This document shows, in pieces, positions 487 to 57,401 of a DNA stretch of 64,000 bases; position 1 is the stretch's first letter; each line of letters starts with the position of its first letter. The stretch is from Halalkalicoccus jeotgali B3 (GTDB lineage Archaea > Halobacteriota > Halobacteria > Halobacteriales > Halalkalicoccaceae): contig NC_014297.1 in assembly GCF_000196895.1 (NCBI RefSeq), positions 1,054,001 through 1,118,000 of the forward strand. Direction: 5' to 3'. Both the position numbers and the translations under genes were made by a program. A model generated the notes under the pieces. The model searched no databases. It was not told where the DNA came from and was given only the letters and a program-made list of their open reading frames with translations.

Positions 487-1044
487 ATGGCAATAGCAGT
501 GGACTCCACCGTCGAGATGGATACCACCCTCCATCACAATGCTGTCAACGTCCTCCTCGCGATCTACGATGCGGAAGACGAGACAGCTAACACAAGCCAG
601 ATAGGGGCCGTTACGGGGCTCTCAAGTGCCAATATTTCCGGCGGACACGCTCAGACACTTGAACGGGAAGGATTGATTGAACGAGCTGGATCTGTCGAGA
701 GTAGCGCGCCGAGGGATACGAACGTCTATACCGTAACACACCGTGGTCGGAAGGAAGCAAAGCGTCTTTTAAATGAAACCGATGCCGAGGTTCCGATGTC
801 GGATGGGGAGAAGTTGGCCCTGTTGAATCTGCTCAAAGACCATGCCGGTGGCATCGAACAAGCCCCCAGGAGTAGAGGGCAGGATGCGGTAAGCCGAGAA
901 GAGCTCAAGGAACTCCGTCAAGAGGTAGCCGAAGTTAAATCGATGCTGGAGAGTCACGAAGAGCGGCTGAATGACCATGACGATGGTTTCGAAAACGCAT
1001 GGAATACATTAGAGAAGGTCGTAGATAGAGTAGTGGAAGACTAA
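487..1044 (+). CDS. Winged helix-turn-helix protein with C-terminal coiled coil
   Basis: A 185-residue acidic protein. Residues about 15-100 look like a MarR/PadR-type winged helix: a predicted recognition helix around TGLSSANISGGHAQTLE, followed by a wing and the typical YTVTHRGRKEAKRLL segment. Residues about 130-175 are strongly charged with heptad-like hydrophobics (LKELRQEVAEVKSML), suggesting a dimerising coiled coil. An upstream ATG at 480 is in another frame that closes quickly. The gene is convergent with the ParA partner and their stop codons overlap by 4 nt (1041-1044). The role is inferred to be transcriptional control of the element. The DNA target is unknown. Confidence 0.65.
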   Translation: MAIAVDSTVEMDTTLHHNAVNVLLAIYDAEDETANTSQIGAVTGLSSANISGGHAQTLEREGLIERAGSVESSAPRDTNVYTVTHRGRKEAKRLLNETDAEVPMSDGEKLALLNLLKDHAGGIEQAPRSRGQDAVSREELKELRQEVAEVKSMLESHEERLNDHDDGFENAWNTLEKVVDRVVED

Positions 1045-1388
1045 TCCTCGATCCCAAGCACTTCGCGTACAGTCTTCTCGGAGAAGGCTGCCTCCAAGAC
1101 GGCAGGGTAGAAGTCTGCGTTCTTCTGTAGCTTCTCGCCGTGCTCACGGCGATACTCGAGGTTAAGTTCTTGGAATTGGAGATCAAGCGTATCTACTTCC
1201 TCCTCGGACAGGTACATCGTCAGGGCCGTCTTGTCCTTCGTAGACGGCCTACCAGTAGAGTTTGTAGATGATGTTTTGCTCGTTTTGGATGTTTTGTTTG
1301 TTTGTTCTTCAGTAGACGCTTCGTCCGAATTGTTCTGAAAGCGGGCGTTGAGTGAATCCTTTCGGGAGTCCTTTGGGTCATCGCTCAT
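1041..1388 (-). CDS. Small ParA-partner protein (putative partition or DNA-binding)
   Basis: A 115-residue protein directly downstream of parA, with a 4-nt ATGA overlap (1385-1388), so the two are probably translationally coupled. The N-terminal half is low complexity and hydrophilic (KTSKTSKTSS, about residues 33-42). The C-terminal half, from about residue 52, has a short strand-like segment (KTALTMYLSEEEVDTLD) followed by helices, as in ribbon-helix-helix or ParB-substitute proteins of archaeal plasmids. Its position suggests it supplies the adaptor function of the partition system. The coding DNA at 1282-1296 contains a 15-bp copy, in inverted orientation, of the repeat upstream of parA. 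The fold assignment is inference. Confidence 0.6.
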   Translation of the reverse strand: MSDDPKDSRKDSLNARFQNNSDEASTEEQTNKTSKTSKTSSTNSTGRPSTKDKTALTMYLSEEEVDTLDLQFQELNLEYRREHGEKLQKNADFYPAVLEAAFSEKTVREVLGIED

Positions 1389-2140
1389 CGGACCACCTCA
1401 GCCATTTCGAGGAACACGTCTCCCATATCACACTCCTCCTCATGGTGGAATATGGACGTTCCGTTCGACCAGGCCCGTTTGAGTGCGACGCGTTTTCGGA
1501 TCTCGTAGACTGGCACGGCCGGCTCGAACGTCTCTCGGAACCACGTCATCATCTCGTCTGACTCGCCGTCGTTCTCGACACGGTTCGCCGCGATCGCGTC
1601 GACGGCGATCGTCTCGTCGAAGTTCTCCTCGATAGTATCGACCTGGTCGAACAGTATCTCGACGGCACGGGTCGACGTTGATTCGGCCAGCCCTGGGACG
1701 ACGATGCTATCGCACGCCAATAGTGCCGAGTCCGTGAGGATCCCCAGCCACGGTGGGCAGTCGATGATAATGTAATCCGGGTCAGCGTCGAGCTGCTCGA
1801 GCGCCATGTCGAGGCGTTCTCGATTTCGCATCTCGGTGATGAGCTCCGGTTCGGCGTTGAACATCTCGATGTTCGACGGAGCCAAGCGTAGTTCGTCATG
1901 GTCGACCAGAATGTCGTTGATTGTTGACTGGTCCGAGAGGAGTGTGTCGTATAGAGACGGGCCGGAGGCATCGTCATATTCGCCCGTGAATCCGAGTCCC
2001 TCAGTTGCGTTCCCCTGGGGGTCGAGGTCGACAAACAGTACGTCCTCGCCAACCTGGTTGAGTGCTCCCGCGAGATTGATCGCGACGGTGGTCTTTCCGA
2101 CGCCGCCCTTCTGGTTTGTGATGGCTATCTTTTTCGCCAT
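1385..2140 (-). CDS. parA: ParA-family partition ATPase
   Basis: A 251-residue ParA/Soj/MinD-type ATPase. It begins with MAKKIAITNQKGGVGKTT, a deviant Walker A with the signature lysine, and continues with DLDPQGNATEGLGF (Walker A') and YIIIDCPPWLG (Walker B). The start is placed at 2140. An in-frame ATG at 2200 exists, but the residues between are a translation of the repeated upstream operator DNA, and a TATA-like box at 2163-2172 makes 2140 a leaderless start. ParA proteins segregate plasmids or chromosomes with a partner protein and a centromere. Here the partner gene follows, and repeats overlap the promoter, implying autoregulation. Confidence 0.9.
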   Translation of the reverse strand: MAKKIAITNQKGGVGKTTVAINLAGALNQVGEDVLFVDLDPQGNATEGLGFTGEYDDASGPSLYDTLLSDQSTINDILVDHDELRLAPSNIEMFNAEPELITEMRNRERLDMALEQLDADPDYIIIDCPPWLGILTDSALLACDSIVVPGLAESTSTRAVEILFDQVDTIEENFDETIAVDAIAANRVENDGESDEMMTWFRETFEPAVPVYEIRKRVALKRAWSNGTSIFHHEEECDMGDVFLEMAEVVR

Positions 2141-2144
2141 GTCT

Positions 2145-2891: not shown

Positions 2892-3128
2892 TTACTTGCT
2901 CGTCTGATACAGCTTCTGACGAGCGTCGGCCATGTTCGGTCGGACGGTGACAGTCTCCTCGCCGTCGATGAGGCGCTCGAGTGCGTATCGGACTGTCCGC
3001 GGGGGGAGGCGGGTGATCTCGCTGATGTCGCCTTGCGTCAGCTCGCCGTGATCGTCCAGAGCGTAATAGACCAGCTTGCACGACGGGGGGCAGTCCTTGA
3101 TCTCGCGGGGGAGAGTCGTCTCACTCAT
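2892..3128 (-). CDS. Small winged-helix protein, last gene of the twelve-gene operon
   Basis: A 78-residue protein starting MSETTLPREIKD. A longer frame continues upstream, but this ATG overlaps the previous gene by 8 nt, as expected in the operon. Residues about 12-62 form a MarR/DprA-like winged helix: LVYYALDDHGELTQGDISEI, then LPPRTVRYALERL as the recognition helix. Many haloarchaeal elements carry such one-domain regulators. It probably controls element genes, including possibly its own operon. The target is unknown. Confidence 0.7.
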   Translation of the reverse strand: MSETTLPREIKDCPPSCKLVYYALDDHGELTQGDISEITRLPPRTVRYALERLIDGEETVTVRPNMADARQKLYQTSK

Positions 3129-3357
3129 CGCCACACTCCGCTTCCGGTGGGAGGGGGTCGCTTGTCGCCTCGCCACAGTTCGTGCAGTACCACTTGTCCG
3201 CCCCGGGCGTCCGCCCGATCTGGGACCGATTGGGCGTGAGGCAGACCGACTCGCAATACGGACACCGACGCATCTCTTCGTGAGGGGTTGACGAGCGAGC
3301 GTAGAGCGCCTCCTGGAGATCGAATCCCTCGGGGACGATATCGGACGAGCCGCTCAT
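3121..3357 (-). CDS. Zinc-ribbon protein
   Basis: A 78-residue protein with two cysteine pairs, CPYC (about residues 32-35) and CTNC (about 58-61), enclosing roughly 22 residues, the spacing of a zinc ribbon. The flanks are acidic and probably disordered. The start overlaps the stop of the upstream 47-residue gene by 4 nt, and its end overlaps the next gene by 8 nt. The function is unknown. Protein-protein or nucleic-acid contact is the usual role of such microproteins in haloarchaeal plasmids and viruses. Confidence 0.65.
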   Translation of the reverse strand: MSGSSDIVPEGFDLQEALYARSSTPHEEMRRCPYCESVCLTPNRSQIGRTPGADKWYCTNCGEATSDPLPPEAECGDE

Positions 3358-3497
3358 CGGTCGATCACACTCCAGTCGATATGGTCTTCGTCATACCCAT
3401 ACCACTCGGCGTGATTCGCCGCAATCTGGCGAGCGATCTCCTCGTCGCGCAGTTTGATATTGTAGTTGTAGCAATCGCAGTCGCCGCGATGGATCAC
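3354..3497 (-). CDS. 47-residue cysteine-containing microprotein
   Basis: A short gene starting with GTG at 3497, overlapping the upstream gene by 4 nt (GTGA) and the downstream start by 4 nt (ATGA). The product begins MIHRGDCDCYNYNIKLRDEE and ends DDHID-like acidic residues before WSVIDR. It has only two cysteines (CDC), so a full zinc site is not evident. Gapless placement between two coding genes, acidic composition and lack of another frame support it as real. The function is unknown. Confidence 0.5.
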   Translation of the reverse strand: MIHRGDCDCYNYNIKLRDEEIARQIAANHAEWYGYDEDHIDWSVIDR

Positions 3498-3598
3498 GAG
3501 TGATCACCCCCCTGGGCACTCCCGCACCACTTACAGAACGGGACGACGACGGAGATCTCCCGATCGCACGACTGACAGGGACGCTGGTAGCCGTGCAT
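3494..3598 (-). CDS. 34-residue zinc-ribbon microprotein
   Basis: A very short gene starting with ATG at 3598. The product is essentially a single zinc ribbon: CQSC at residues 8-11 and CKWC at about 22-25. It overlaps the previous gene by one base (TGATG) and the next by 4 nt. One-ribbon proteins of this size are common in haloarchaeal mobile DNA but almost always uncharacterised. No function is assigned. Confidence 0.55.
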   Translation of the reverse strand: MHGYQRPCQSCDREISVVVPFCKWCGSAQGGDHS

Positions 3599-3804
3599 CA
3601 GTGCTCACTCCCATCGAACTCGCCGAGTTGAGGGTGCTCATGTTCGTGCTCGTCGAGGTCGCCCTCGTAAAACGCGATCACCTCATCGTAGTCCTCGGGT
3701 TGGCGACCCACGATCCGCTCGAAGTCGTTTTTGTGCTTCCGGGCGTGTGCCGGTGCGCCGAGACCTCGGCTCACCTCTTGGCCACAGATCTGGCAGAAGG
3801 GCAT
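3598..3804 (-). CDS. Small C2H2-like zinc-finger protein
   Basis: A 68-residue protein starting MPFCQICGQEV at 3804, overlapping the stop of the upstream gene by one base (TAATG). An upstream in-frame ATG would make it 88 residues but would run through the neighbouring gene. CQIC (residues 4-7) followed by HARKHK (about 20-25) gives a plausible C2H2 finger. The tail is histidine and glutamate rich (DEHEHEHPQ), which could bind metal. It is probably a nucleic-acid or protein-binding accessory factor of the element. Confidence 0.6.
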   Translation of the reverse strand: MPFCQICGQEVSRGLGAPAHARKHKNDFERIVGRQPEDYDEVIAFYEGDLDEHEHEHPQLGEFDGSEH

Positions 3805-3941
3805 TATGCAAACCTCCGGTAGTAGCTCGGCGTGCAGCTCGAGCAGACGAACTCGGGACTCCATCCGGCGGTCGAGCCGTCGTGATCAATGTCGGCCGTC
3901 CAGAGGGCGTCCATTTCGCCATCGCACGAGAGGCAGTCCAT
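3804..3941 (-). CDS. 45-residue zinc-finger microprotein
   Basis: Starts with ATG at 3941, one base into the stop of the preceding gene (TGATG). The product carries CLSC at residues 3-6 and CSSC at about 33-36, a four-cysteine zinc-binding arrangement. It ends SYYRRFA, with a small basic patch. It is coupled to both neighbours by single-base overlaps. The function is unknown. Confidence 0.5.
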   Translation of the reverse strand: MDCLSCDGEMDALWTADIDHDGSTAGWSPEFVCSSCTPSYYRRFA

Positions 3942-4315
3942 CAGTCATCCGCCTCCTGGACGTCGGCACCACCGTCCGTCATTATCGCGTTCTCGACGTT
4001 AAACGTATCTTCGACGCGGCGGCACTCGTTGTGTTCGTCAGACTCCCCGTGCAGTACCTCGGTGAACTCCTTTGAGTAACGAGCAGAGGACGTGAGATTG
4101 TAGAGAGTCTCACTCTCCGGCCAGAAGATTACCATCGCGAAGTCCTCGTGCATGTCCCCCCGTTCAATCCAGCCGTAGACCGAGACGGATTGTTCACCGT
4201 TCCACTCACCGACGGTGAATCGGTCCCACGAGACGAAACGGCAGGCTCGGAGTTTGCGCGCGATCCATCGCCGGTTTTCGATTCGGTCAGCCCCGTCTGA
4301 GGAAGTATCGCTCAC
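3941..4315 (-). CDS. Hypothetical protein of the element operon
   Basis: A 124-residue protein starting with GTG at 4315 (MSDTSSDG), overlapping the preceding gene by 4 nt. There is no recognised domain. Residues about 25-85 are a mix of strands and aromatic residues (SVSVYGWIERGD, FAMVIFWPESETLYNL), which reads as a small beta-rich fold, and the tail is acidic. Its first eight codons are nearly identical to those of the gene immediately upstream (4312-4524), suggesting local duplication around the translation start. The function is unknown. Confidence 0.55.
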   Translation of the reverse strand: MSDTSSDGADRIENRRWIARKLRACRFVSWDRFTVGEWNGEQSVSVYGWIERGDMHEDFAMVIFWPESETLYNLTSSARYSKEFTEVLHGESDEHNECRRVEDTFNVENAIMTDGGADVQEADD

Positions 4316-4524
4316 GCCGGCTCACCTCCCGGAAGACACCAGTCATCGTGATTGGGGCCGTCACGCCCCGGGTCGACGCAATCCGGTCGACGAGAACAAC
4401 GTTCTGTCGCTCCTGTATCACCGCGTCCGCGTTCGTGACCGTATTCGATCCCTGACGGGCCAATAGTTATCTGACGGCCACATACCGGACAGCGTTCAGT
4501 ACCGTCTGAGGAGGTATCGCTCAT
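4312..4524 (-). CDS. Zinc-finger protein with duplicated N-terminus
   Basis: A 70-residue protein beginning MSDTSSDGTERCPVCGRQ. CPVC at about residues 12-15 is followed by further cysteines at about 43, 49 and 62, enough for a zinc site of irregular spacing. The first eight residues match the next gene downstream. It is linked by 4-nt overlaps on both sides. No function is known. Confidence 0.55.
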   Translation of the reverse strand: MSDTSSDGTERCPVCGRQITIGPSGIEYGHERGRGDTGATERCSRRPDCVDPGRDGPNHDDWCLPGGEPA

Positions 4525-4757
4525 CGCGAGTCCCCCATGAGATCGGCCAGCAGTTCCTCGTAACCGAGTTCGTCAGTCGTACAGCCACACTCGCCGCGGC
4601 CATGGTGTGGGATGTTCGACTTCGAGATCGAGAAGCACATCGCGAGCTCGCGATTCGTCCACTCGCCATACAGCAGGCGGATCGCCGCGCATTCCCGGGG
4701 CGAGAGGTCAGTCGACGGGCCCGGCGAGTGGACGTCGATGATCGGGTCGGTGCTCAT
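4521..4757 (-). CDS. Small LuxR/sigma-like helix-turn-helix protein
   Basis: A 78-residue protein. LSPRECAAIRLLYGEWTNRE (residues about 18-37) resembles the start of a LuxR/sigma-region-4 HTH, in which a PRE motif precedes the scaffold helix. The following ELAMCFSISKSNIPHHG segment would hold the recognition helix. Cysteine and histidine residues (HHGRGECGC) follow and may bind zinc. It overlaps the large upstream gene by 4 nt. DNA binding is inferred. Confidence 0.55.
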   Translation of the reverse strand: MSTDPIIDVHSPGPSTDLSPRECAAIRLLYGEWTNRELAMCFSISKSNIPHHGRGECGCTTDELGYEELLADLMGDSR

Positions 4758-7700
4758 GCCGCCACCTCCTGGATCGCGACCTGATCGGACTGCCTCCCGA
4801 AGCGAACCGTCCTCGTCTCGGGCTCGAGGCCCCGATGGGAGAGGCGCCCGGCCAGATCGATCCAGCGCTCGTAGACAGCGAACTGACCCAGTGCGCCGGC
4901 CCAGTCCTCACTGAAGAACGCCGCGCCGACCGGATGCTCGGAATCGTGAGCCGCCTCGCCAGAGATCGCCTCGGCGAGGTCGTAGAGGACGTCGACCGGA
5001 TCGGCGCCCGTCTCCGTTGCGATCCCCGGGACGATGTCTGAGCCGCGCTCATCGCTCGTCGGGAAGGGGAGCGCAAAGCGAATCCCGGCCTCATCTGAGT
5101 CGGCCAGCCCGAGTGCCTCGAGACGCGGGAGGTGGGTGCGGACCGACCGAGACGAGACGTCCGCCCGGCCGGCGAGTTCACTCTGTGTGAGGGGTGATTC
5201 AACGGTCAGCAGCGCTTTCGTGAGTTTCTGAACTGTGGGTTGCATGGTTGGAAGGAGTCGGTCTGAGGGGAGCTGGGCGAGTGCCCGGCGCACCTCGTCG
5301 AGTCGGATATCTCGAGGGCGGTCCTCGGACTGCAGGGCGTAATCGATCGCCGCCGCGGCGTCGAGTGGCGAGCCGGCGAGAGCGTCGAACAGCGCGATCG
5401 ACTCGCGAGTCGCTGAGAGGTTCTTCTGCGCGAGCCGATCGCGAGCAGTGAGTGCCATCGCCGGCCGGCCGACGTCGGTCGTGATCGACACGGGAACGTC
5501 GAACTCGGGGGCGTCCTCGTGGAGTCGACTATCGGCCCCGTCCGCCCCGCGGCGGATCTCTGCCCGGAGGTCGTCGGCCAGTCGCGAGATAGACGACCCG
5601 ACGATAACGAACGAGCCGATCATGTCCCCGGACGGGTCATCGGCCGGGATCGACGGCTCCATCGCAGCTGCTCGTTTGTCTTCGTCGGCCTCGAACAGCT
5701 GCCGATAGGCAGCGAAGTGACCGTGCCGGCTCGCGATCTGAGCCCCGTGAACGACGTTCTTCGCGAGGTCGGCCCGGTCGTCGGCATCGAACCGGCGCGT
5801 GAACTCGGGGACGCGAACCTCCCGGACGAGCTCGACGTCGGCGAGATCGCACAGATGGGCGACCGTGCCGATGATCCCGTGAGAGAACCGAGTGATCCGA
5901 GAGCGGAACTCCTCGGGAGTACACGAGTAGTCGCCATTATGCCACTGCCGAGTCATGTCGAGAAGCTCATCTTCAGCGGCCATCAGCGCCTCCGCGTACC
6001 GCTCGGCAGTCGTATCTCGATCCGACAGCCAGCCGAGACAACGAGCATCCCGAAGGATCCGCGGGTCGTCCGTTGCGAGCCCACCGAGATCGCCGACGTC
6101 ACCGTCGAGGCGATCGGGAGTGAGAACATCCCGGAACACACGGCGGTCGGTTAACGCTCGTGCAACACACACCGTGTACTGCATAGGGTTGCGGTACTCA
6201 GCGCCGGCCACCAGTCGGTCGTCGCCATCGTAGCTCAGGTACGGCTGGCGTAGCTCGTCACTCGGTTCAACTGGGTGGTCAACCAAGCTCACAGCGCCTT
6301 CGGTGGCACTTGCAGCAACCGCGGCCCCTCGCCACCGGGGCATATACTCCACAGTCACGGCGGCGCCGTGGCGGCGGCGGTCGGCCGGGCCGGTCGCGGC
6401 GGTGGTGGGGGTGTCCTCCCCTCCCCCATCTCGCTGCGTGCTTACACGGCAATAGATGGAGGACTTTCCGGAGTCGCTAACGCAACTATCGAGTGTTGCC
6501 TGCCGACCGATTTCAGCGTCGAGACGGTCCACAAACGCCGATCCTGCTTTGAGGAGTTCGACGTGCGGTCCATCGGCAGTCTCGAACGTCGCGACGAGAT
6601 CGAGGTCGCTGAGTCGACCAACGCACTGTCGTATTCGCGAGGACGAAACGCCGGCACTACTCTCGATCGCGTGCTTCGGGAGGGTTTCGCTGGCCTCCCC
6701 GCTGAGTTGCCGGAGGATCGCCACCTCTCGCGAGTCGTGACTGAGTTCCAGGCCGGCCTGTTCGACTGTCGCATCGGTGGACTGCCCAGGACGGCCTGTA
6801 CTGCAGATCTCGCTAACGCCGGGCAGGTCCTGGCGGTGCTTCCTCGCGAGCTTCCGACGGACGCCCATGGTCGTCACGACGCGGACGTCACACCCTCGTG
6901 CGAGTGCGGCAATGATCGACAGGACGCCCCGGCGCTGATCGGCAACCCGGTCGAAGAACTCCCGATCGAGTCGAACGGCGACGGTCGGCGTTCGACCACT
7001 CCCGGCGAGCAACTCGAGCGCATGCCCGATCTCCTCGGTCGGGGATGTCCCCTGGCCGAGCGTCTGGAGGTCGTCGACGAGTTGCCAGAGCGCGACCCGG
7101 TCGCCCTTCCCGATCCGGACTGCGAGCTCGGGATACGTATCGGGGAGATCGCGACCGACTAACTCCTCGCGATACTCGTTGGGTGACTTTCCGGTTGCGC
7201 TAACGCGGACCGACTCGATGATCGCCTCGATGAACGATCCCGTCTCGGTGAGTTCCGACCAGAGGTCGGTCGGCGAGCGATCGCCCACCTCCACGTCGAC
7301 GATGGCAGACAGGGGGGCCTGATCGGTGAACGTCAGCGACCCGTCGCCGGTGATCGGCTCGCCCGCCTCGAACTCCTGGAGTTGCTCCTCGACCTTCGCC
7401 TCGTAGCGTCGATCACAGTCCTCGAACGCCCCCTCGTACAGCGAGGCGTAGAGGCTGTCCCACTCGTCGAGTGCACCCTCCGTCTCGCCGCTGGTCGAGT
7501 GGCGCTCGTTGAACGCTTCGAGACGCTGCTCTGCGATCTCGGCGTAGGGGTCCTCGAGGCCGAGTTCTTCGACGTCGCCCTCGGCTCGGAGGTAGCTGTG
7601 CTCGTCGGGGTCGTATTCAATCGAGTTATATGACTTGTTGGCGTCCTCGACGTTGGCCTTTCCACGCACCTCTCGAGCTTCTTCGGCTGTTTGGGTGGAC

Positions 7701-7846
7701 TGAAGTACCCGAAGCGCACTCGTTTTGTGAACAGAACCACACGACCGACACTCAACTCGGTCTTTGAAACGAATATCCTCAACTATCCAATAGCTATTAC
7801 AATGAGTACAGCCAACAACCGAGAAGGGCGCACTGTCGCCCCTCAT
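4754..7846 (-). CDS. 1030-residue zinc-ribbon (DUF5817-like) and multi-winged-helix protein
   Basis: This is the dominant gene of the operon. Residues 1-60 form a zinc ribbon with CTHC (about 13-16) and CRSC (about 33-36), followed by an AREVRGKANVED helix, resembling the haloarchaeal DUF5817 module. Later segments look like winged helices, for example REVAILRQLSGEASETLP near residue 370 and VESPLTQSELAGRADVSSRS near residue 890. Long helical linkers lie between. No nuclease, helicase or polymerase motif was found. It may be the central regulator, or a replication or packaging adaptor, of the element. Many haloarchaeal plasmid-like elements carry relatives without a defined role. The start at 7846 overlaps the upstream gene by 4 nt. 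Confidence 0.65.
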   Translation of the reverse strand: MRGDSAPFSVVGCTHCNSYWIVEDIRFKDRVECRSCGSVHKTSALRVLQSTQTAEEAREVRGKANVEDANKSYNSIEYDPDEHSYLRAEGDVEELGLEDPYAEIAEQRLEAFNERHSTSGETEGALDEWDSLYASLYEGAFEDCDRRYEAKVEEQLQEFEAGEPITGDGSLTFTDQAPLSAIVDVEVGDRSPTDLWSELTETGSFIEAIIESVRVSATGKSPNEYREELVGRDLPDTYPELAVRIGKGDRVALWQLVDDLQTLGQGTSPTEEIGHALELLAGSGRTPTVAVRLDREFFDRVADQRRGVLSIIAALARGCDVRVVTTMGVRRKLARKHRQDLPGVSEICSTGRPGQSTDATVEQAGLELSHDSREVAILRQLSGEASETLPKHAIESSAGVSSSRIRQCVGRLSDLDLVATFETADGPHVELLKAGSAFVDRLDAEIGRQATLDSCVSDSGKSSIYCRVSTQRDGGGEDTPTTAATGPADRRRHGAAVTVEYMPRWRGAAVAASATEGAVSLVDHPVEPSDELRQPYLSYDGDDRLVAGAEYRNPMQYTVCVARALTDRRVFRDVLTPDRLDGDVGDLGGLATDDPRILRDARCLGWLSDRDTTAERYAEALMAAEDELLDMTRQWHNGDYSCTPEEFRSRITRFSHGIIGTVAHLCDLADVELVREVRVPEFTRRFDADDRADLAKNVVHGAQIASRHGHFAAYRQLFEADEDKRAAAMEPSIPADDPSGDMIGSFVIVGSSISRLADDLRAEIRRGADGADSRLHEDAPEFDVPVSITTDVGRPAMALTARDRLAQKNLSATRESIALFDALAGSPLDAAAAIDYALQSEDRPRDIRLDEVRRALAQLPSDRLLPTMQPTVQKLTKALLTVESPLTQSELAGRADVSSRSVRTHLPRLEALGLADSDEAGIRFALPFPTSDERGSDIVPGIATETGADPVDVLYDLAEAISGEAAHDSEHPVGAAFFSEDWAGALGQFAVYERWIDLAGRLSHRGLEPETRTVRFGRQSDQVAIQEVAA

Positions 7847-8115
7847 TTGTCATCCTCCTGCGAAGCAACGATTTGCTTCCTCTCGCACCAAAAGTGTACT
7901 TCGATCTGGGAAAAGCGACACCAGTCATTTCGAGTGCTACTCTTCGCCTCTTCAATGGTTTCGCGCGTCTGGTGAACCGAATCTATTTGATATGCAAACT
8001 GTTCACCTGATTCAACATCGACCAGTCGGTATAGGAGAACGTATACGAATTCCCCCTTGATTTCTGATGCTCGGCGAAAACCGCGGGGATACTTATCGTC
8101 ACGACTTGCCGTCAT
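7843..8115 (-). CDS. Hypothetical small protein, second gene of the operon
   Basis: A 90-residue protein with no recognised domain. It starts MTASRDDKYPRGFRR and has a beta-like stretch (EFVYVLLYRLVDVESGEQF) followed by a charged helix. Base composition is lower in GC than the chromosomal genes. It overlaps the gene before and the gene after by 4 nt each. The function is unknown. Confidence 0.5.
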   Translation of the reverse strand: MTASRDDKYPRGFRRASEIKGEFVYVLLYRLVDVESGEQFAYQIDSVHQTRETIEEAKSSTRNDWCRFSQIEVHFWCERKQIVASQEDDK

Positions 8116-8456
8116 GCTGCCCCCTCGCCTTCATCGGCAGCTTTCGGTGCGGGGAGATCGACGCCCTCGATCGCCTCGAAGACGAGGATCTGACTCTTGG
8201 GGAACCACGCCTCGTCATCCTCTCGACCGAGGAGGATCGCGTCATCCGTCTCTCGGATGATAGATCCGGCGACGACTTCGCCACCTCCAGTCGACGGGTA
8301 GTCCTTCTGCCCGACGAGCCAGTCGGGGGCGTAGGCAACGAGTTCGCGACCGGCGTTGAGCTCGACGACGACCGCGTCGGCCCGCACAACGTTGAGGAAC
8401 GGATCGCCGATGAGGTCGCCGTAGGAGCTAACCTCGACCGTATCGAGATCACCCAT
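8112..8456 (-). CDS. Hypothetical protein, first gene of the twelve-gene operon
   Basis: A 114-residue protein starting MGDLDTVEVSSYGDLI at 8456. A longer frame to 8474 is possible, but the promoter at 8487-8492 makes 8456 the likely first codon. The body is predicted mostly beta (ADAVVVELNAGRELVAYAPD, DDAILLGREDDEAWFP), possibly an SH3-like or OB-like barrel. The C-terminus is acidic and disordered. As the first gene of the operon it may be the most highly expressed. No function can be assigned. Confidence 0.55.
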   Translation of the reverse strand: MGDLDTVEVSSYGDLIGDPFLNVVRADAVVVELNAGRELVAYAPDWLVGQKDYPSTGGGEVVAGSIIRETDDAILLGREDDEAWFPKSQILVFEAIEGVDLPAPKAADEGEGAA

Positions 8457-8484
8457 CGAGGTCACCCCGAGCAACCTGACCAGT

Positions 8485-8495
8485 TGTATAAACCG
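8485..8495 (-). promoter_or_regulatory. TATA box of the twelve-gene operon
   Basis: Read on the minus strand the sequence is GGTTTATACA, with TTTATA at 8487-8492. A transcription start about 26 bp downstream would fall near 8463, giving a 5' leader of only a few bases before the ATG at 8456. No other promoter-like gap exists inside the operon, because all downstream genes overlap. Confidence 0.5.
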
Positions 8496-8499
8496 TATG

Positions 8500-8903
8500 A
8501 CGATTTATGGATGCTGGTTGCTGGGGGTGACAGAAGTCAGCGTGAGAGGCCGTGTAAGCCTCCGTGATCTGGCCCAGATTCTCTGCGTCTGATGCAGAGC
8601 ATGCGCCAGATGTTCGGCGGACGGTAGCTCCGTTTTCGCGGATATAGCTCCCGAAGGACGCCGTATTCTACCGTTTTTGAGCCAGCGGCCGCGATACATC
8701 CATTCTGGCTGGATGGCGGCCGTAGTAGGTCAATAACGGTGCACATGGCCTCGTTCCGGTGGCGTCCTTCTGCGACCGTCTTGGGAGTACGCCGATCGAC
8801 GATCGGCATTATCTGCTACAAAAGTCGTGATGAAACGCAACGGAGGTATTCAACAGCACGATTCTGACAGCGTCTCTACCACTCACTGATGCGTATCCGA
8901 GGT
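8500..8903. other. Dyad-rich non-coding stretch at the element/chromosome junction
   Basis: No supportable gene. Several dyads are present: ATCTGG-C-CCAGAT at 8567-8579; CTCTGC/GCAGAG with a 7-nt loop at 8581-8599; AGCCAG...CTGGCT near 8681-8710 with nearby GCGGCCG repeats; and GCCGATCG-A-CGATCGGC at 8791-8807. The region separates the accessory operon from chromosomal genes that begin at 8904. It could be an origin, an attachment region or a regulatory region. No integrase and no tRNA gene fragment was recognised here. Confidence 0.35.
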
Positions 8904-11722: not shown

Positions 11723-12001
11723 AATCAACGTGAGCCGCGGCCGTCTTCGCCGGCCTCGGGGAGTATCCCGAGTCGCATCTACTGATCGGCGGTGAGGGCA
11801 AACAGGGCTAAACGGGGCCGGACCTACCTTCGGTCGGTTCCCCCGTTCGTAGCGGCCCCGGAATCCGTCTAAGCACCGCTTATCGACGATTATCGACTCC
11901 CTATCGCATCACGGGGCCGCACCGCCGCACGGAGCGGGTCGTTCGCGATGGTCGCCACTAGCGAGTGTATAGTAACGTATCATTTCGACTATCTATTCGT
12001 T
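11723..12001. other. Intergenic region, no gene seen
   Basis: About 280 bp between the divergent ABC operon and a small plus-strand gene. It includes a GC-rich tract and AT-rich sequence near 11960-12000 that probably holds the promoter for the gene at 12002. No open frame with haloarchaeal character, RNA gene or repeat was recognised. Confidence 0.4.
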
Positions 12002-51958: not shown

Positions 51959-52155
51959 CGAGATATTTTATTAACTCTCCAGGTAGCGACGAGACGCCGG
52001 ACCGGGTCGGCGACTTCCGTTGGACTCGCCCAAATGGCCGATCGCGTCCATCGGTACCCGGGGCTGTCCAACGATGAATGAACAAACCTAAATGAATGAT
52101 GGTGCTGTTTGACCGGCTTTATTTTTCCTGCTTTCGGGGATTGGTACGAACTACG

Positions 52156-52935
52156 ATGGTTCGAAGAGATAGCGAATCCGACGGGACGCATCACCGACGA
52201 ACAGTACTGAAAGCCGGCCTCGTCGCCACAACGGGTGTCGCCGGCCTATCGACGGCCGGGTTCGCCCAGAACGACGGGAGTTCCGAGGACCACGTGATCA
52301 CGCTCACGGTCGTCGATCAGGACGGAAACCCGCTACAGGGAGAGGTGGCGATTTTCGAGGGGAATCACGGAGACATCGTCGACGACCGGGAACTCGACGA
52401 GAACGGTCAGGCGACGTGGGAAGTGAGTCGGGAAGGACAGTACTCCTACGACTACATCCGGTCCGGATACGAGATGGTTTCGGAGGACACCACCTTCGAA
52501 GTCGATGGCGGCACCGAGGTCACGGTCGAAATGCGAAAGGAGGACTGGGAGGTCGGGGACAACACGATCACCGTCACCGCCCTCGACGAGGAGACCGGCA
52601 AACCCGTCGAGGGGGCACGGGTCGAACTGGTCGGTGGACTGCCCGGTCCCGCCGAATCGGTCGATCGAGGCGAGACGAACGCCGAAGGCGTCTACGAGGC
52701 CACCGTACCGGCCGTCATGCAGGCGGTCAGCGTGGACCTCGTTGATGGGTACTACGGCGACTCTGCGCTGGTCGACCTCAGTGAAGGCGACGCCGAGGTG
52801 ACGATCGAACTGACGCCCGCAAGCGGTTCGGACGACGGCGGGGAGGACTCGGAAGGCGATGAATCGCCGGCTGACGGCGAGGATTCGTCCGAAGCGGACT
52901 CGGACGACAGTGTAGACTGCGAGAAACGTACGTAA
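52156..52935 (+). CDS. Tat-exported protein with Ig/carboxypeptidase-regulatory-like repeats
   Basis: A 259-residue protein with a Tat signal (HRRTVLKAGLVATTGVAGL, ending near AGFAQ). The mature part contains two beta-sandwich-like repeats with VVDQDGNPLQGEVAIFEG and ALDEETGKPVEGARVELVGG, typical of carboxypeptidase-regulatory-like domains. The C-terminal 40 residues are Asp/Ser/Glu-rich and disordered. It is probably a cell-surface or binding protein. The start at 52156 is preferred. Its end is 56 bp from the transposon. Confidence 0.7.
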   Translation: MVRRDSESDGTHHRRTVLKAGLVATTGVAGLSTAGFAQNDGSSEDHVITLTVVDQDGNPLQGEVAIFEGNHGDIVDDRELDENGQATWEVSREGQYSYDYIRSGYEMVSEDTTFEVDGGTEVTVEMRKEDWEVGDNTITVTALDEETGKPVEGARVELVGGLPGPAESVDRGETNAEGVYEATVPAVMQAVSVDLVDGYYGDSALVDLSEGDAEVTIELTPASGSDDGGEDSEGDESPADGEDSSEADSDDSVDCEKRT

Positions 52936-52985
52936 CGCACTCGATTCCGCGTTCGGCCGTCCGGCGAAACCTCCTCAGTGCTGTT

Positions 52986-52991
52986 CACACC
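52986..52991. repeat. Left target-site duplication (CACACC)
   Basis: CACACC directly precedes the left terminal inverted repeat of the transposon, and is repeated immediately after the right one at 59182-59187. A 6-bp direct duplication outside perfect inverted repeats is the expected footprint of DDE transposition. Confidence 0.75.
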
Positions 52992-53004
52992 CAGTAGTTC
53001 CGAA
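52992..53004. repeat. Left terminal inverted repeat of the transposon
   Basis: CAGTAGTTCCGAA, perfect reverse complement of 59169-59181. Bases further inside do not match in a significant way. Confidence 0.8.
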
Positions 53005-53026
53005 GGTCAAAATCTGTGCAGGAGAT
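52999..53026 (+). repeat. 28-bp subterminal repeat, copy 1
   Basis: Twenty-eight bases starting TCCGAAGGTCA that recur at 54396-54423 with a single mismatch. Copy 1 overlaps the left terminal repeat. The two copies flank 1.4 kb containing two genes, so they may mark an older or nested element or a cassette junction. Confidence 0.75.
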
Positions 53027-53134
53027 CATCTCATCAAATCGTGTAGCGTAGAAAGTTGATCCATTGGCCCGAATGCCGTTGGCTACAAGCAAGGCAATAA
53101 TACTACTGGAGTCCGGAACCCGAAATAACAAACC

Positions 53135-53410
53135 ATGGGAAAAGACGATCTGATTGACGAGATTGAACGGCGAATAGAAGGATCAGAGACGCTGTCAGCC
53201 GAAGATTTAGACGTTGAGCAACGGTGCCGATATTGCGAGACACCACTACCGTATGAGGACTATAATGAGCACACCCCGAGCGCAGATTACGTCATCCACA
53301 TCATGCCCACTGCCGGAGAACAATCACCTCCAGAAAAGAGAATATACTGCACCCCAGACTGCCTGGTCAAGGACATGCGCGAAATAGAGGAACAATTCCT
53401 CCAAGAATAA
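53135..53410 (+). CDS. Small C4-type zinc-binding protein (transposon passenger)
   Basis: A 91-residue acidic protein starting MGKDDLIDEIERRIEG. It has CRYC (residues 31-34) and CTPDC (about 71-75), suggestive of a four-cysteine zinc site. The rest is helical and charged. Codon use is AT-richer than flanking chromosomal genes. It lies just inside the left end of the transposon. The function is unknown. Confidence 0.6.
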   Translation: MGKDDLIDEIERRIEGSETLSAEDLDVEQRCRYCETPLPYEDYNEHTPSADYVIHIMPTAGEQSPPEKRIYCTPDCLVKDMREIEEQFLQE

Positions 53411-53433
53411 ACCGCCGACAGAAGGTGTGAGCG

Positions 53434-53997
53434 TTACCTTCTGTGAAGACTCACCGCTCGCTCCGTAGCTTCGTAGACATTAGGGGTTGACCGCCAGTCG
53501 AGACGGCCATAATCTCCCTGCTGTACCGTCTCGTTTGCTTTAATCGCATTGACAGTTTCTTCAAGCCGATCCCGCTTCTCAAATAGGTCACCTTCGAAGA
53601 GGACTGAATTAACTTGATTCGGCGAGACCTCCAGAGCCTCGGCGATGACCTGACGCACGTGAGGATCTCTGTTGATGTGCTGAGTTACTCGTTGAAGTTC
53701 ATCGTTCACAGCGGGCCCCATCTCATCTCCATAGACCCGCCCGTTCGTACGCTGATTCAGCAAGTAGCTGTCTGCTCCCTCACTCGTTTCATTGAGTAAG
53801 CCAATTTCTTCGGTCAGCCGACGGAGCCGACCATATGAGGCTTCAGGGCAGGCAGCTTCGATATCAGCTCGATACATGCCCGAACCTGGTGGTGCATTAC
53901 TGGAGGTATAGGCGAGGACCTCCGCTAATTCGGGAGCAATTCGAATATCTGCATTCGCTTCACGTTCGACCGCGGCGATCAGATCTTTTCGAGACAT
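53434..53997 (-). CDS. Unknown passenger protein with winged-helix-like N-terminus
   Basis: A 187-residue protein starting MSRKDLIAAVEREANADIRI. Residues about 20-75 contain a helix-turn-helix-like pattern (YRADIEAACPEASYGRLRRL). The C-terminal half is helical with charged repeats (DLFEKRDRLEETVNAIKANE). It is convergent with the small zinc protein, 23 nt between stops. It is possibly a regulator or nucleic-acid-binding protein of the transposon. Confidence 0.5.
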   Translation of the reverse strand: MSRKDLIAAVEREANADIRIAPELAEVLAYTSSNAPPGSGMYRADIEAACPEASYGRLRRLTEEIGLLNETSEGADSYLLNQRTNGRVYGDEMGPAVNDELQRVTQHINRDPHVRQVIAEALEVSPNQVNSVLFEGDLFEKRDRLEETVNAIKANETVQQGDYGRLDWRSTPNVYEATERAVSLHRR

Positions 53998-54746
53998 ATT
54001 TCAGTGGTGTTCAATGGCGTGTCAATCATATACGATACCATACACTAGCCACTCCCTCTATGGATTACCGAAGCGTCTAAGTCCTCGGAGGAGCTACAGC
54101 CTTGCACAGACCAGTGGGAGGTCTACCGGTCACTCTCTGCTAGTGCCAGAGACAGTGGCCGAATCGGCTTTATTGGAGGGTGTTATCTCATGACGAGACT
54201 TTGGCACGATATACATATAACACTTTCCCCAGATATTGACAATAAAGCATTTGAACCGGATTGAATTTTCTAATCGGAAATTTTGAATGTAGTCTTCCGT
54301 TCTAAAGATTAAAATTTATCCTATCAATCATAAAACATCAATATTTTCCCACCAATTATATGTCATATATGCTTGAACTAATGGGTATATTGCAATCCGA
54401 AGGTCAGAATCTGTGCAGGAGATAAATCCACGAGGAAGCTATACAAAACAATGACTAAACAACACATTATCGGCGGCTGCGAACGGTTCATCGAAAAAGC
54501 CGAACACTACACCCACTGCGAACATGGTTAAGTACAAGTGGAAAGCATCGATTTCGAAATCACGAAATTAACAGAGTCGGGATGAGTTTGAGGGAAAAGC
54601 GCCAACAGTAGCTTCGCGAATGGCAAATAGGTCTGAATCTCGGAATAATAAGTGCAAAAACGCGACAAAACTATGAGTATCAAGCCAAATCATACAATAA
54701 CTAAACCACCGAAAGAACTAGATAGGGGGCTACCGTTGGGTACACT
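53998..54746. other. AT-rich gene-poor stretch inside the transposon
   Basis: About 750 bp with no convincing long gene. It contains AT-rich tracts (54290-54370) and the second copy of the 28-bp repeat at 54396-54423. A 26-residue frame at 54451-54531 (MTKQHIIGGCERFIEKAEHY...) is too short to claim. The region may hold decayed sequence from an earlier insertion. Confidence 0.45.
54396..54423 (+). repeat. 28-bp repeat, copy 2
   Basis: Matches 52999-53026 at 27 of 28 positions, in direct orientation. It lacks the first seven bases of the terminal inverted repeat, so it is not itself a complete end. Confidence 0.75.
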
Positions 54747-54953
54747 ATGAGTGTTGGAGTTACTGTAGAAGAACGGGCCATTAGTGTTGACCTGCCTGAT
54801 CAGCGAGAATATCGTAGCAAGGAGGATGCGGAATTAGATAAGGCTCTGGTAGAGTCAATTAAATGCGCAGAAGAGGCAGATAACGACTATTTGACGACAG
54901 TGTTGAAAAACGAACTCAAATCCCATTATTACAGCGAACAATTGAGTTACTGA
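54747..54953 (+). CDS. Small passenger protein of 68 residues
   Basis: Starts MSVGVTVEERAISVDLPDQR. Residues 1-20 are strand-like and the rest is charged helix (KEDAELDKALVESIKCAEEA). No recognised domain. It precedes another small gene by 63 nt on the same strand. It could be an antitoxin-like or regulatory peptide for the convergent Fic protein, but this is speculation. Confidence 0.45.
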   Translation: MSVGVTVEERAISVDLPDQREYRSKEDAELDKALVESIKCAEEADNDYLTTVLKNELKSHYYSEQLSY

Positions 54954-55016
54954 CTTAAGCAGATACCTCGCAAACATGCTAGGTTATTAAGTGGTAGTGA
55001 GTGTAGTTCCGTTATC

Positions 55017-55364
55017 ATGGGCGAGGATGAAGTGAAAGAACGCGTCAAAGAATTGCTCTTAGAACACGAGGGTTCAGATGACCCTATCACTTCGCGAGAG
55101 ATCAATGAGGAAACGAACCTTGACAATATCGGTTCTTTCCCCTCTACTAGAGCTGTGATTCGTGAGCTTGTACTGGAAGACCAACTGCCGATAGCAGCCA
55201 CATCACAAGGATATTTCATTATCCAAGACGAAAATGAGCTATCAGAGTATGTGGATCAACTTGAAAGTCGCGTGATGAATATTACTGACCGCAAATTTGC
55301 TGTACAGCGCGCTGCTCTAAATTGGGATGAAGGGTTCACCGACGAAGACGACGATATTTTATAG
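55017..55364 (+). CDS. Winged-helix-like passenger protein
   Basis: A 115-residue acidic protein. ERVKELLLEHEGSDDPITSR and EINEETNLDN...TRAVIRELVLED form a winged-helix-like N-terminal domain, resembling phage repressor or replication-helper proteins. A wing could follow (GYFIIQDENEL). A TATA box at about 54984-54991 gives a leaderless start at 55017. It is convergent with fic, 62 nt between stops. It may regulate the transposon. Confidence 0.55.
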   Translation: MGEDEVKERVKELLLEHEGSDDPITSREINEETNLDNIGSFPSTRAVIRELVLEDQLPIAATSQGYFIIQDENELSEYVDQLESRVMNITDRKFAVQRAALNWDEGFTDEDDDIL

Positions 55365-55408
55365 CCCTAATTGTTGAGCTCTTTAATCGAGCATCGAGTA
55401 GAGAATCC

Positions 55409-55421
55409 CAGTAGCTCCGAA
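55409..55421. repeat. Near-copy of the transposon terminal repeat
   Basis: CAGTAGCTCCGAA differs from the terminal repeat by one base and has the same orientation as the left end. It lies between the Fic gene and the winged-helix gene, so the right part (fic to transposase) may once have been a separate, smaller element with this as its left end. Confidence 0.55.
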
Positions 55422-55426
55422 ATAGA

Positions 55427-56587
55427 TTAGCGATATTGTAACTCATCGACAGGCTTCTGGATTATATCGAAAACCTCTTTTGCTCGATAGACACGGTTCC
55501 TGCTCTGCCCCGTAGTCTCCTCTAATACTCCATCTTCTTCTAACCGATCTACAGCCTTATTCGCTGTTCTGTAAGCCATATCAATCATCTGTTTAGCTTC
55601 ATTAACGGTAATATATGGTTGGGCGAATATTTCCATCGAAAGCTGTGAAACAGAATTTGCATCGTCTTGGTATCTGTCTCGATAATCATCACGCAAATCG
55701 AGCAAAGCAGAAGCCCTACTGAATGCCTCTTCTGTCTGCTGAGAAATACCTCTTAAGAAGAAAACTAGCCACTCTTGCCAAGCATTGTCTCGGCTTACAG
55801 CTAATAGCCGATTAGTGTATTCCTCTCTATTACGATTGAAGTATGAACTGGGATATAGAAAGGGTTCTGGTAAAAGGTCATCATCACACATCATCATCAT
55901 GATGAGTAGCCGACCCATTCTACCGTTACCATCCCGGAAGGGGTGGATCGTCTCAAACTGATAGTGCACCAATCCTATATCGATTAGAGACTGATACCTG
56001 CCGCCAGTCTGGATATATGTCTCCAGATTCTGCATCGCATAGGGGACTACTGACGGTGGTGAGGGTACAAATCGTGCATCTTCTCCACGACCTCCGATAT
56101 AAACTTGTGTATCACGAAATTTTCCAGGTTTTTTATCTCCGCCTCGAACACCACTCATCAAAGTATTGTGTAGAGAGCGGATAAGATCAAGGTCGATTCC
56201 GTTTTCCATTTTTTGAATTCCTTCGAAGACCGCTCTGACATAGTTATGAACTTCTTTTAGCTCATTACGGCTAGGCCCTGATGGGTCATTTTCCTGCCCT
56301 GCTTCGTATTCGTATACATCGGATAGTGTAACTCGTGTCCCCTCTATTTCAGAAGAGACGACTGCCTCTTTATAAATAAAAGGACTAATCAACATACTGG
56401 GGTTCTCAACACGCCTCCCGACGCCACTAAGTTGGCCTATGTTATTGGTTGCCTGCGTGAACACATCCAATAGTTCATCGTCCATTTCTATTTCTGGAGG
56501 AAGAGTGTCTGGTTTGAACGCGATATCTCCCCCAGAATTCACTAACTCTCCAGACATTTTGCCGGATCGGAATTGATCTATGTTCAT
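55427..56587 (-). CDS. fic: Fic/DOC-domain AMPylase-type protein with autoinhibitory motif
   Basis: A 386-residue Fic protein. The active-site motif HPFRDGNGRMGR lies at residues 215-226. An inhibitory helix motif SSEIEG is at residues 78-83 ([S/T]xxxE[G/N]), N-terminal to the core, so it is class II and probably self-restrained. The C-terminal 80 residues look like a winged helix (ITVNEAKQMIDMAYRTANKA). Fic enzymes add AMP or other phosphate groups to target proteins. Start: 56587, supported by a TATA box at 56611-56618. Longer starts add little-supported residues. The target is unknown. Confidence 0.88.
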   Translation of the reverse strand: MNIDQFRSGKMSGELVNSGGDIAFKPDTLPPEIEMDDELLDVFTQATNNIGQLSGVGRRVENPSMLISPFIYKEAVVSSEIEGTRVTLSDVYEYEAGQENDPSGPSRNELKEVHNYVRAVFEGIQKMENGIDLDLIRSLHNTLMSGVRGGDKKPGKFRDTQVYIGGRGEDARFVPSPPSVVPYAMQNLETYIQTGGRYQSLIDIGLVHYQFETIHPFRDGNGRMGRLLIMMMMCDDDLLPEPFLYPSSYFNRNREEYTNRLLAVSRDNAWQEWLVFFLRGISQQTEEAFSRASALLDLRDDYRDRYQDDANSVSQLSMEIFAQPYITVNEAKQMIDMAYRTANKAVDRLEEDGVLEETTGQSRNRVYRAKEVFDIIQKPVDELQYR

Positions 56588-56610
56588 ATATCCTATCATT
56601 GGTAGAGAGC

Positions 56611-56618
56611 ATATTAAA
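56611..56618 (-). promoter_or_regulatory. TATA box of fic
   Basis: On the minus strand the sequence is AGTTTAATATG, with TTTAATAT at 56611-56618. About 26 bp downstream is 56588, one base before the ATG at 56587. So the fic mRNA would be leaderless and begin at the chosen start codon. Confidence 0.5.
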
Positions 56619-56849
56619 CTGTTTTCCATATAGGTTCAATACAGGTGGATCACCGGAACTCATAGTGACCTTGTATTTCGGCCCAATATATATCTAAAAG
56701 GGCCTATACAGTGCTCAAAGTCGAAGAACCCGAGTTCAAAGTGAAATATAGGAAGTGAAATAAGAGGCAGGCATGAGGCGTATATTGATGTGCTACCGAA
56801 GATAGTACAATAAGCTATATCATGTTCACAGTAAAACATATATAGAGGA

Positions 56850-57086
56850 TCATATAGTTCGGATCCAAATTGCCCGCCGTGGTTCTGGCTTTTTCTTTCT
56901 AACCCGCCCTTGCCCTGCTAACTCTTCGAGATAATTGTATACCGTCCGTCGCGGGGCATCAACCATATCCGCGATCTCACCTGTCGTATAGGGCTCCATT
57001 GGCTCCATCGCTTCGAAGACTGTCTCTACAGTAGCGCCATGTTCCGACTCAAACTGCCCCTTTTTGTCGCGATTTACGTCATTCAT
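56850..57086 (-). CDS. Small winged-helix regulator (transposon passenger)
   Basis: A 78-residue protein starting MNDVNRDKKGQFESEHGATV. The winged helix is EPYTTGEIADMVDAPRRTVY, then YLEELAGQGRVRKKKPEPRR, the usual haloarchaeal HTH design with a basic C-terminal wing. It is divergent from the 33-residue membrane peptide and the transposase. It may act as transposition or fic regulator. Confidence 0.7.
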   Translation of the reverse strand: MNDVNRDKKGQFESEHGATVETVFEAMEPMEPYTTGEIADMVDAPRRTVYNYLEELAGQGRVRKKKPEPRRAIWIRTI

Positions 57087-57124
57087 GTGTACCGAATGTA
57101 GTCGTCTGTGTTGCAACTTGCAAC

Positions 57125-57226
57125 ATGAACTACTTAGCCCTTGCCGTGATAGGAACCGGTATACTTATTGGCCATGCCTTACAAGGAATGGATATAGGAG
57201 CCTGGTTAATCGATAGACTGCGGTAG
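57125..57226 (+). CDS. 33-residue membrane peptide
   Basis: Starts MNYLALAVIGTGILIGHALQ, with one hydrophobic segment, and ends IDRLR. It begins 39 nt from the divergent winged-helix start and is followed directly by a hairpin-rich segment. Single-helix peptides of this type occur in proviruses and toxin systems, but the evidence is limited to the open frame. Confidence 0.35.
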   Translation: MNYLALAVIGTGILIGHALQGMDIGAWLIDRLR

Positions 57227-57229
57227 AAT

Positions 57230-57327
57230 ATCCGGGTGTTAGAGCACCCGGATTTGGCTCCTTGCGGAGCGCGCGGAGCTGATCCCCTATGTCCAGTAAG
57301 AGTCACAGCTCCAACGAGCAGTTGGAG
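57230..57327 (+). other. Three-hairpin structured segment upstream of the transposase
   Basis: ATCCGGGTG/CACCCGGAT form a 9-bp stem with a 6-nt loop (57230-57253). GCTCC-TTGC-GGAGC follows at about 57257-57270. CTCCAAC/GTTGGAG form a 7-bp stem with a 5-nt loop (57309-57327). Three strong stems within 100 nt before a transposase gene may act as terminator, attenuator or structured RNA controlling transposition. Confidence 0.5.
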
Positions 57328-57401
57328 ACTACGGCGGTTAAGCATGGCGACAGAACACCCCATGATGCGCAGTATAATGCAATTTCTGGGGTTGCATTCT
57401 T

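Follow-up and report, generated by a model that had tools for sequence, protein, structure and literature searches.

A putative early replication operon with a variable set of microgenes in a haloarchaeal tailed-virus provirus

Described repH regions and the locus in Halalkalicoccus jeotgali

The described systems closest to the locus studied here are the replication regions of the haloviruses ChaoS9, phiH1 and PhiCh1 and those of RepH-type haloarchaeal plasmids. In ChaoS9, 31 of the 85 coding sequences overlap, and a MarR-like gene just downstream of repH has already been noted (PMC6471424). In phiH1, 45 of 97 coding sequences overlap, and the L-region replicates as a plasmid (PMC6210493). 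It is also known that haloviruses commonly encode CxxC microproteins away from their assembly genes (PMC7911831). Both these microproteins and gene overlaps are thus established features of haloviruses, and the operon described below joins such systems.

We analysed a stretch of 64,000 nucleotides from Halalkalicoccus jeotgali B3 (the window; 1054001-1118000 of contig C1), in which positions 8456 to 2892 of the minus strand are tiled without a gap by twelve open reading frames, g01 to g12. In the order of transcription the junctions overlap by 4, 4, 4, 4, 4, 1, 1, 1, 4, 4 and 8 nt (4 nt at seven of the eleven, 1 nt at three and 8 nt at one), and the products are 114, 90, 1030, 78, 70, 124, 45, 68, 34, 47, 78 and 78 residues long. 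An earlier note on this DNA had given this gapless chain with its 1-, 4- and 8-nt overlaps correctly to the base; its tiny genes of 34, 45 and 47 codons are present as g09, g07 and g10, and its tight coupling holds as anatomy. We put the probability at about 80% that the locus is the early replication operon of an integrated haloarchaeal tailed-virus provirus of about 77 kb, with a variable accessory slot for microgenes. The analysis gives the giant protein a name, places the operon in a bounded provirus, and replaces the idea of a complex with a rule of gene order that can be tested, in which repH is followed by a variable set of small overlapping genes and these by a regulator.

Like the window, ChaoS9 (PMC6471424) has a RepH with a DUF5817-type N-terminus, overlapping small genes, a MarR-like gene (ChaoS9_390) just downstream of repH, and repH upstream of the terminase/packaging and structural genes. 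Unlike the window, it has no genes between repH and the winged helix-turn-helix (wHTH) gene, its small genes are not homologous to those of the window, and it is an extrachromosomal provirus that carries orc1 and has no T4SS-like block. The phiH1 L-region and PhiCh1 (PMC6210493) share with the window ParA, RepH, small regulators and CxxC microproteins encoded in overlapping genes, whereas their RepH is 28% identical and is without the DUF5817 part, repR is divergent, imm lies downstream of repH on the opposite strand, and a gene of the g12 type was not found. The RepH-type plasmids have the same replication protein family, mostly without coupled downstream genes.

The third gene, g03 (4754 to 7846, minus strand), encodes the 1030-residue product, which is identified by sequence as the RepH of haloviruses and many haloarchaeal plasmids. 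It matches the RepH of Halobacterium virus ChaoS9 with 99% coverage (E = 9e-91), RepH of phiH and of PhiCh1, ORF19 of NVIV1, and 49 haloarchaeal plasmid records, and PHROG 17376 (replication protein) matches residues 170-1029 (E = 2e-152). The DUF5817 zinc ribbon at residues 8-62 (E = 2e-14) covers just the first 62 residues, and wHTH regions lie further on (about 390-430 and 870-916). For many relatives, 840-930 residues long, the alignment begins only at about residue 162-171. The protein had been described as DUF5817-like/winged-helix, and both regions were found, but DUF5817 is no more than the N-terminal zinc ribbon of RepH. In the RepH tree the window protein forms a long branch, with at most 41% identity to any other member. 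When an AlphaFold2 model was built from 11 sequences, it was of moderate quality (mean pLDDT 66.6, pTM 0.40), and its Foldseek matches were MarR-like wHTH parts and the ChaoS9 RepH only; the search for an enzymatic fold, by AlphaFold2 with Foldseek and by profile against PDB sequences, returned wHTH parts only.

The stretch between repH and the winged HTH gene

The last gene of the operon, g12 (2892 to 3128, minus strand), encodes a MarR-like wHTH protein of 78 residues (PF13412, 24.6 bits against a cut-off of 21.9). Two or three HTH products had been expected in the operon, which agrees with the clear winged HTH of g12 and a weak HTH in g04; RepH itself also has HTHs. From viruses, plasmids and genomes we assembled 82 loci in which repH is open over 800 codons or more; removal of near-identical RepH proteins left 74, and we searched 334 kb upstream and 423 kb downstream of repH with a wHTH profile built from g12, ChaoS9_390 and the gene of L012. 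Relatives of g12, including ChaoS9_390, were found in 18 of the 74 loci, and 15 of these 18 had not been used in building the profile. In all 18 the gene lies downstream of repH on the same strand, never upstream. It is absent from the other 56 loci, many of them on plasmids; a few of these stretches stop shortly after repH. On the RepH tree (FastTree, with long branches) the presence of the wHTH gene takes 11 changes, against 16 for shuffled labels. Since haloarchaeal plasmids often carry genes for g12-like wHTH proteins (75 records have matches), the family is not specific to RepH.

The distance between repH and the wHTH gene varies widely. No gene lies between them in ChaoS9, L093, L095, L096, L099 and L043, one gene in L012 and L013, two in L097, four or five in L137, L139, L151 and L153, eight in the window and nine in L086. 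Two metagenomic viral contigs, L013 and L092, share 97% identity across repH and the first zinc gene, and diverge abruptly downstream of repH from about position 11,876; after this point L013 has the wHTH gene, while L092 has two further small genes and the start of another HTH gene. Tentatively, and with rather less than even confidence, we suggest that haloarchaeal viruses and virus-like plasmids have, as a general feature, an accessory slot in the repH-to-wHTH stretch, holding a co-translated array of zinc microgenes and other small genes that enter it and are exchanged, and that would probably serve host takeover or counter-defence and be co-regulated with replication. If the rule holds, the slot would readily supply short haloviral microproteins, already sorted by nature, for tests of their effects on hosts and other viruses, and would be well suited to studying the translation of long chains of overlapping genes in haloarchaea.

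A narrower reading is that the intervening microgenes of the window form a host-takeover or anti-defence island co-transcribed with repH. The variable small genes, the shared slot and its frequent turnover point in this direction, as do the methylase and ParB-like gene that occupy the slot in L086 and in L084, a Natrinema halophilum plasmid. Against this, when defence and counter-defence profiles were run on the microproteins, they gave nothing beyond chance-level HTH similarity, and we regard the reading as doubtful.

Borders and contents of the provirus

Within a predicted tailed-virus (myovirus-like) provirus of about 77 kb, inserted in the 3' end of secY, the operon occupies the right end. 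A direct repeat at both ends, an integrase at one end and an empty site in a relative, which are the marks of an integrated provirus, were all found. On the left, secY ends at about 985,650 on contig C1 (attL side, about 985,634-985,651), and a gene for a tyrosine integrase with a C-terminal zinc ribbon starts about 40 nt inside attL (6689-8092 of L078). On the right, attR (8601 to 8628 of the window, plus strand) is the displaced secY 3' end, 28 nt of which are identical to the intact secY end of a related genome; the att sites share a 17-nt core within secY, ATGCGCCAGATGTTCGG. In a sister genome (G004) the host sequence is unbroken through the 3' end of secY, which represents the empty site. 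Haloarchaeal tailed proviruses have mostly been reported in tRNA genes (PMC8651126). Here the target is a protein-coding gene, and the provirus gives secY a new last residue (..MRQMFGD). In eight relatives with related integrases, secY was found beside none of them within roughly 1.5 kb on either side.

The genes of the provirus lie mostly on the minus strand and include those for a PCNA-like protein, a phiH Int1-like recombinase, baseplate, tape measure, tail sheath, head morphogenesis and terminase, followed by a VirB4/TraG-like block, ParA and the repH operon. The tail sheath is 32% identical to that of ChaoS9 over 98% of its length, the tape measure matches PHROG 9696, and the best matches of the terminase are in bacterial phages at about 23%. 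Contractile-tail genes and a gene order of the phiH/ChaoS9 (Vertoviridae-like) type were found, whereas a close terminase and relatedness at the family level to this type were not; because of the terminase, we did not file the provirus in Vertoviridae. The ParA-type partition ATPase (1385 to 2143, minus strand) is 43% identical to phiH ParA, and the gene at 1041 to 1388 (minus strand) resembles genes downstream of parA in phiH. The phiH Int1-like tyrosine recombinase (47% identity; L005:7576-8349) adjoins tail-fibre-like genes, which suggests, by analogy, an invertible tail-fibre segment as in phiH.

Genes for VirB4/TraG- and TraD-like proteins and membrane proteins also lie inside the provirus (L004:8753-15645, or about -11247 to -4355 in window coordinates). 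The best genes of this conjugation-like block are 79-87% identical to contig C4 of G003, another replicon in the genus, as if the block had been acquired. These genes adjoin the ParA/RepH region, and with their high identity they might indicate that the element is not a virus at all, being instead an integrated conjugative plasmid with a RepH replicon. This is improbable, as the same pair of att sites also encloses genes for terminase, head morphogenesis, tape measure, sheath and baseplate, which are on the same strand. A mosaic of virus and conjugative plasmid is possible. Further along, positions 52000-58000 of the window have a G+C content of 43-56%, against about 65% around them, and possibly represent another foreign region.

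Small genes, their coupling and candidate control elements

Paired CxxC or CxxC...HxxxH motifs are found in five of the small products, g05, g07, g08, g09 and g11, each of which thus carries the at least two paired CxxC or C2H2 motifs expected of C(P)XCG microproteins. Zinc binding is predicted for the five from these motifs, which bears out the earlier count of at least five zinc microproteins at the level of prediction. Nine of 14 purified Haloferax zinc microproteins reportedly bound zinc. The window's microproteins resemble known CxxC zinc microproteins only in size and in their paired motifs, and those of Hardycor1 are likewise concentrated in the replication/accessory region. Some Haloferax zinc microproteins are reported to affect stress adaptation, biofilm and swarming (PMC6562870).

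The small genes, all on the minus strand, differ in what is known of their relatives. The first gene, g01 (8112 to 8456; 114 aa), matches PHROG 37067 (function unassigned), and its homologues lie directly upstream of repH in the N. halophilum plasmid and in halovirus CGphi46. For g02 (7843 to 8115; 90 aa) no homologue was found, and g04 (4521 to 4757; 78 aa) has a weak LuxR/GerE-like HTH (E = 0.018) and a Cys/His tail. The predicted zinc microprotein g05 (4312 to 4524; 70 aa) is of the CPVCGR type and DUF7837-like below the cut-off; g05-like genes occur elsewhere, including upstream of repH in L013 and L092. A homologue of g06 (3941 to 4315; 124 aa, GTG start) with 65-68% identity sits in a different overlapping microgene operon, in G351. 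The first residues of g05 and g06, MSDTSSDG, are the same and are encoded by nearly the same DNA (4485-4524 and 4290-4315), which by sequence is a small local duplication across the start codons. A different provirus from the same genus has a copy of g07 (3804 to 3941; 45 aa, CxxC...CxxC) with 78% identity, flanked by genes for a cytosine methylase and a wHTH protein and placed before the terminase, and the significant DNA similarity of that provirus to the operon is limited to this gene. The C2H2-type protein g08 (3598 to 3804; 68 aa, CxxC...HxxxH) has relatives of about 50-61% identity in several haloarchaeal genomes. The double-CxxC product g09 (3494 to 3598; 34 aa), a predicted zinc ribbon, is DUF7575-like below the cut-off, and g10 (3354 to 3497; 47 aa, GTG start) has the Shine-Dalgarno match GGTGATC. 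Finally, homologues of the predicted zinc ribbon g11 (3121 to 3357; 78 aa) with 35-37% identity lie close to g08 homologues in two other operons, in G149 and G329, and a weak resemblance was seen in L097.

The earlier note had read the tight coupling as a sign of fixed stoichiometry, possibly in a multi-protein transcription or replication complex; taken as a model, all twelve products would belong to a single such complex. Replication was right, as the giant protein is RepH, but a complex finds no support in conservation: the window's microproteins are missing from nearly all of the 74 RepH loci. The synteny of the giant protein with the microproteins, which that note had suggested checking, is almost never seen in these loci, and RepH is often without any coupled downstream gene. 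Of the operon's products, its only companions elsewhere are g12-type wHTH proteins, the g01 homologue in one plasmid, and the weaker g05 and g11 resemblances. Two outcomes had been named as speaking against the model, a giant protein without the microproteins and microprotein frames that are not conserved. The first was observed; the frames are conserved (g06 65%, g07 78%, g08 50-61%, g11 35-37%), but in other operons. The sequences indicate that the microproteins are conserved as proteins while their gene company is not, and the eight genes between repH and g12 appear to be accessory genes that are gained and lost singly and differ between elements, and are not supported as obligate subunits of a RepH complex. 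Gapless overlaps with Shine-Dalgarno signals would suit a complex, in cellular genomes genes that overlap by a few nucleotides encode an excess of subunits of heteromeric complexes (PMC10666635), and RepH, HTH proteins and zinc ribbons are plausible as replisome adaptors. On the other hand, in every other place examined RepH is unaccompanied by g02 and g04-g10, apart from the g05-like genes at another position, the microgenes recur singly in unrelated operons, and the 97%-identical L013 and L092 carry different genes. Moreover, overlaps are the rule in haloviruses, and the overlapping cluster of HFTV1 is unequally expressed (PMC12542753). We consider a fixed twelve-member complex very improbable, although RepH and this element's own microproteins may form a complex of their own.

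For the early replication operon that we favour, we suggest the following course of expression. All twelve genes would probably be driven by a single promoter that lies ahead of g01 within an inverted repeat. At each overlap, termination-reinitiation would carry the ribosomes on to the next gene, with help from the internal Shine-Dalgarno motifs; the overlaps and the motifs fit this mechanism. In tests of 14 native gene pairs with such overlaps, nine from Haloferax and five from E. coli, 13 were strictly coupled (PMC6728339), and coupling was lost once genes were some 20 nt apart (PMC10666635). RepH would then initiate plasmid-like replication of the virus genome after its presumed excision, and the nearby ParA would serve its partition, as the presence of both proteins suggests by comparison with the phiH1 L-region (PMC6210493). 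From its family and position, g12 most likely regulates the operon, as a repressor perhaps acting at the inverted repeat, while four predicted zinc ribbons (g05, g07, g09 and g11) and one C2H2-type finger (g08) would be among the eight accessory genes between repH and g12.

The twelve-frame pattern is not due to chance, because of its chain length, codon scores and Shine-Dalgarno matches. When overlaps of 1-11 nt and frames of at least 30 aa were allowed, the operon strand gave 12 linked frames and the opposite strand 2; 500 first-order Markov sequences gave at most 8 (mean 3.1), and elsewhere in the window and in 60 kb of provirus next to it the longest chains had 4-6. When the six frames are ranked by codon score, the annotated one comes first in 11 of the 12 genes; the sole exception is g05 (rank 4), although other members of its protein family are found elsewhere. 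The Shine-Dalgarno match averages 5.4 nt at the 11 internal starts and 2.6 nt at 139 control ATG/GTG codons of the same DNA, a mean reached in none of 20,000 resamplings (p < 5e-5), and complementarity of at least 4 nt is found at 10 of the 11 starts against a quarter of the controls. That some of the tiny frames are accidental, as the poor codon bias of g05 and the want of a convincing homologue for g02, g04, g09 and g10 might suggest, is hardly credible given the unbroken chain, these matches, and the homologues of g01, g05, g06, g07, g08 and g11. We also considered the junctions as recombination seams of near-copy sequence and rejected this as a general rule, despite the duplicated start of g05 and g06, as mean junction identity within operons (14.2 of 34) was not in excess of that between operons (13.8).

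A 16-nt inverted repeat with 15 of 16 positions paired (8461-8476 and 8516-8531) flanks a TTTATA box that precedes g01 by about 30 nt, and its motif was not found elsewhere in the genome. The region 8461 to 8531 is our best candidate for the promoter of the operon together with an operator or origin element. At the other end, a perfect 12-bp inverted repeat (2826 to 2871) lies between the convergent g12 and a GIY-YIG gene and may act as a bidirectional terminator. The sequence at 2827-2870 is a palindromic element, CTTGTGCAACA-N(18-23)-TGTTGCACAAG, whose arms are conserved while the interior varies, and of which the genome has 22 copies, 21 on contigs C2, C3 and C5 and one, that in the provirus, on the 2.8-Mb contig C1; two of the six copies examined lie between convergent genes.
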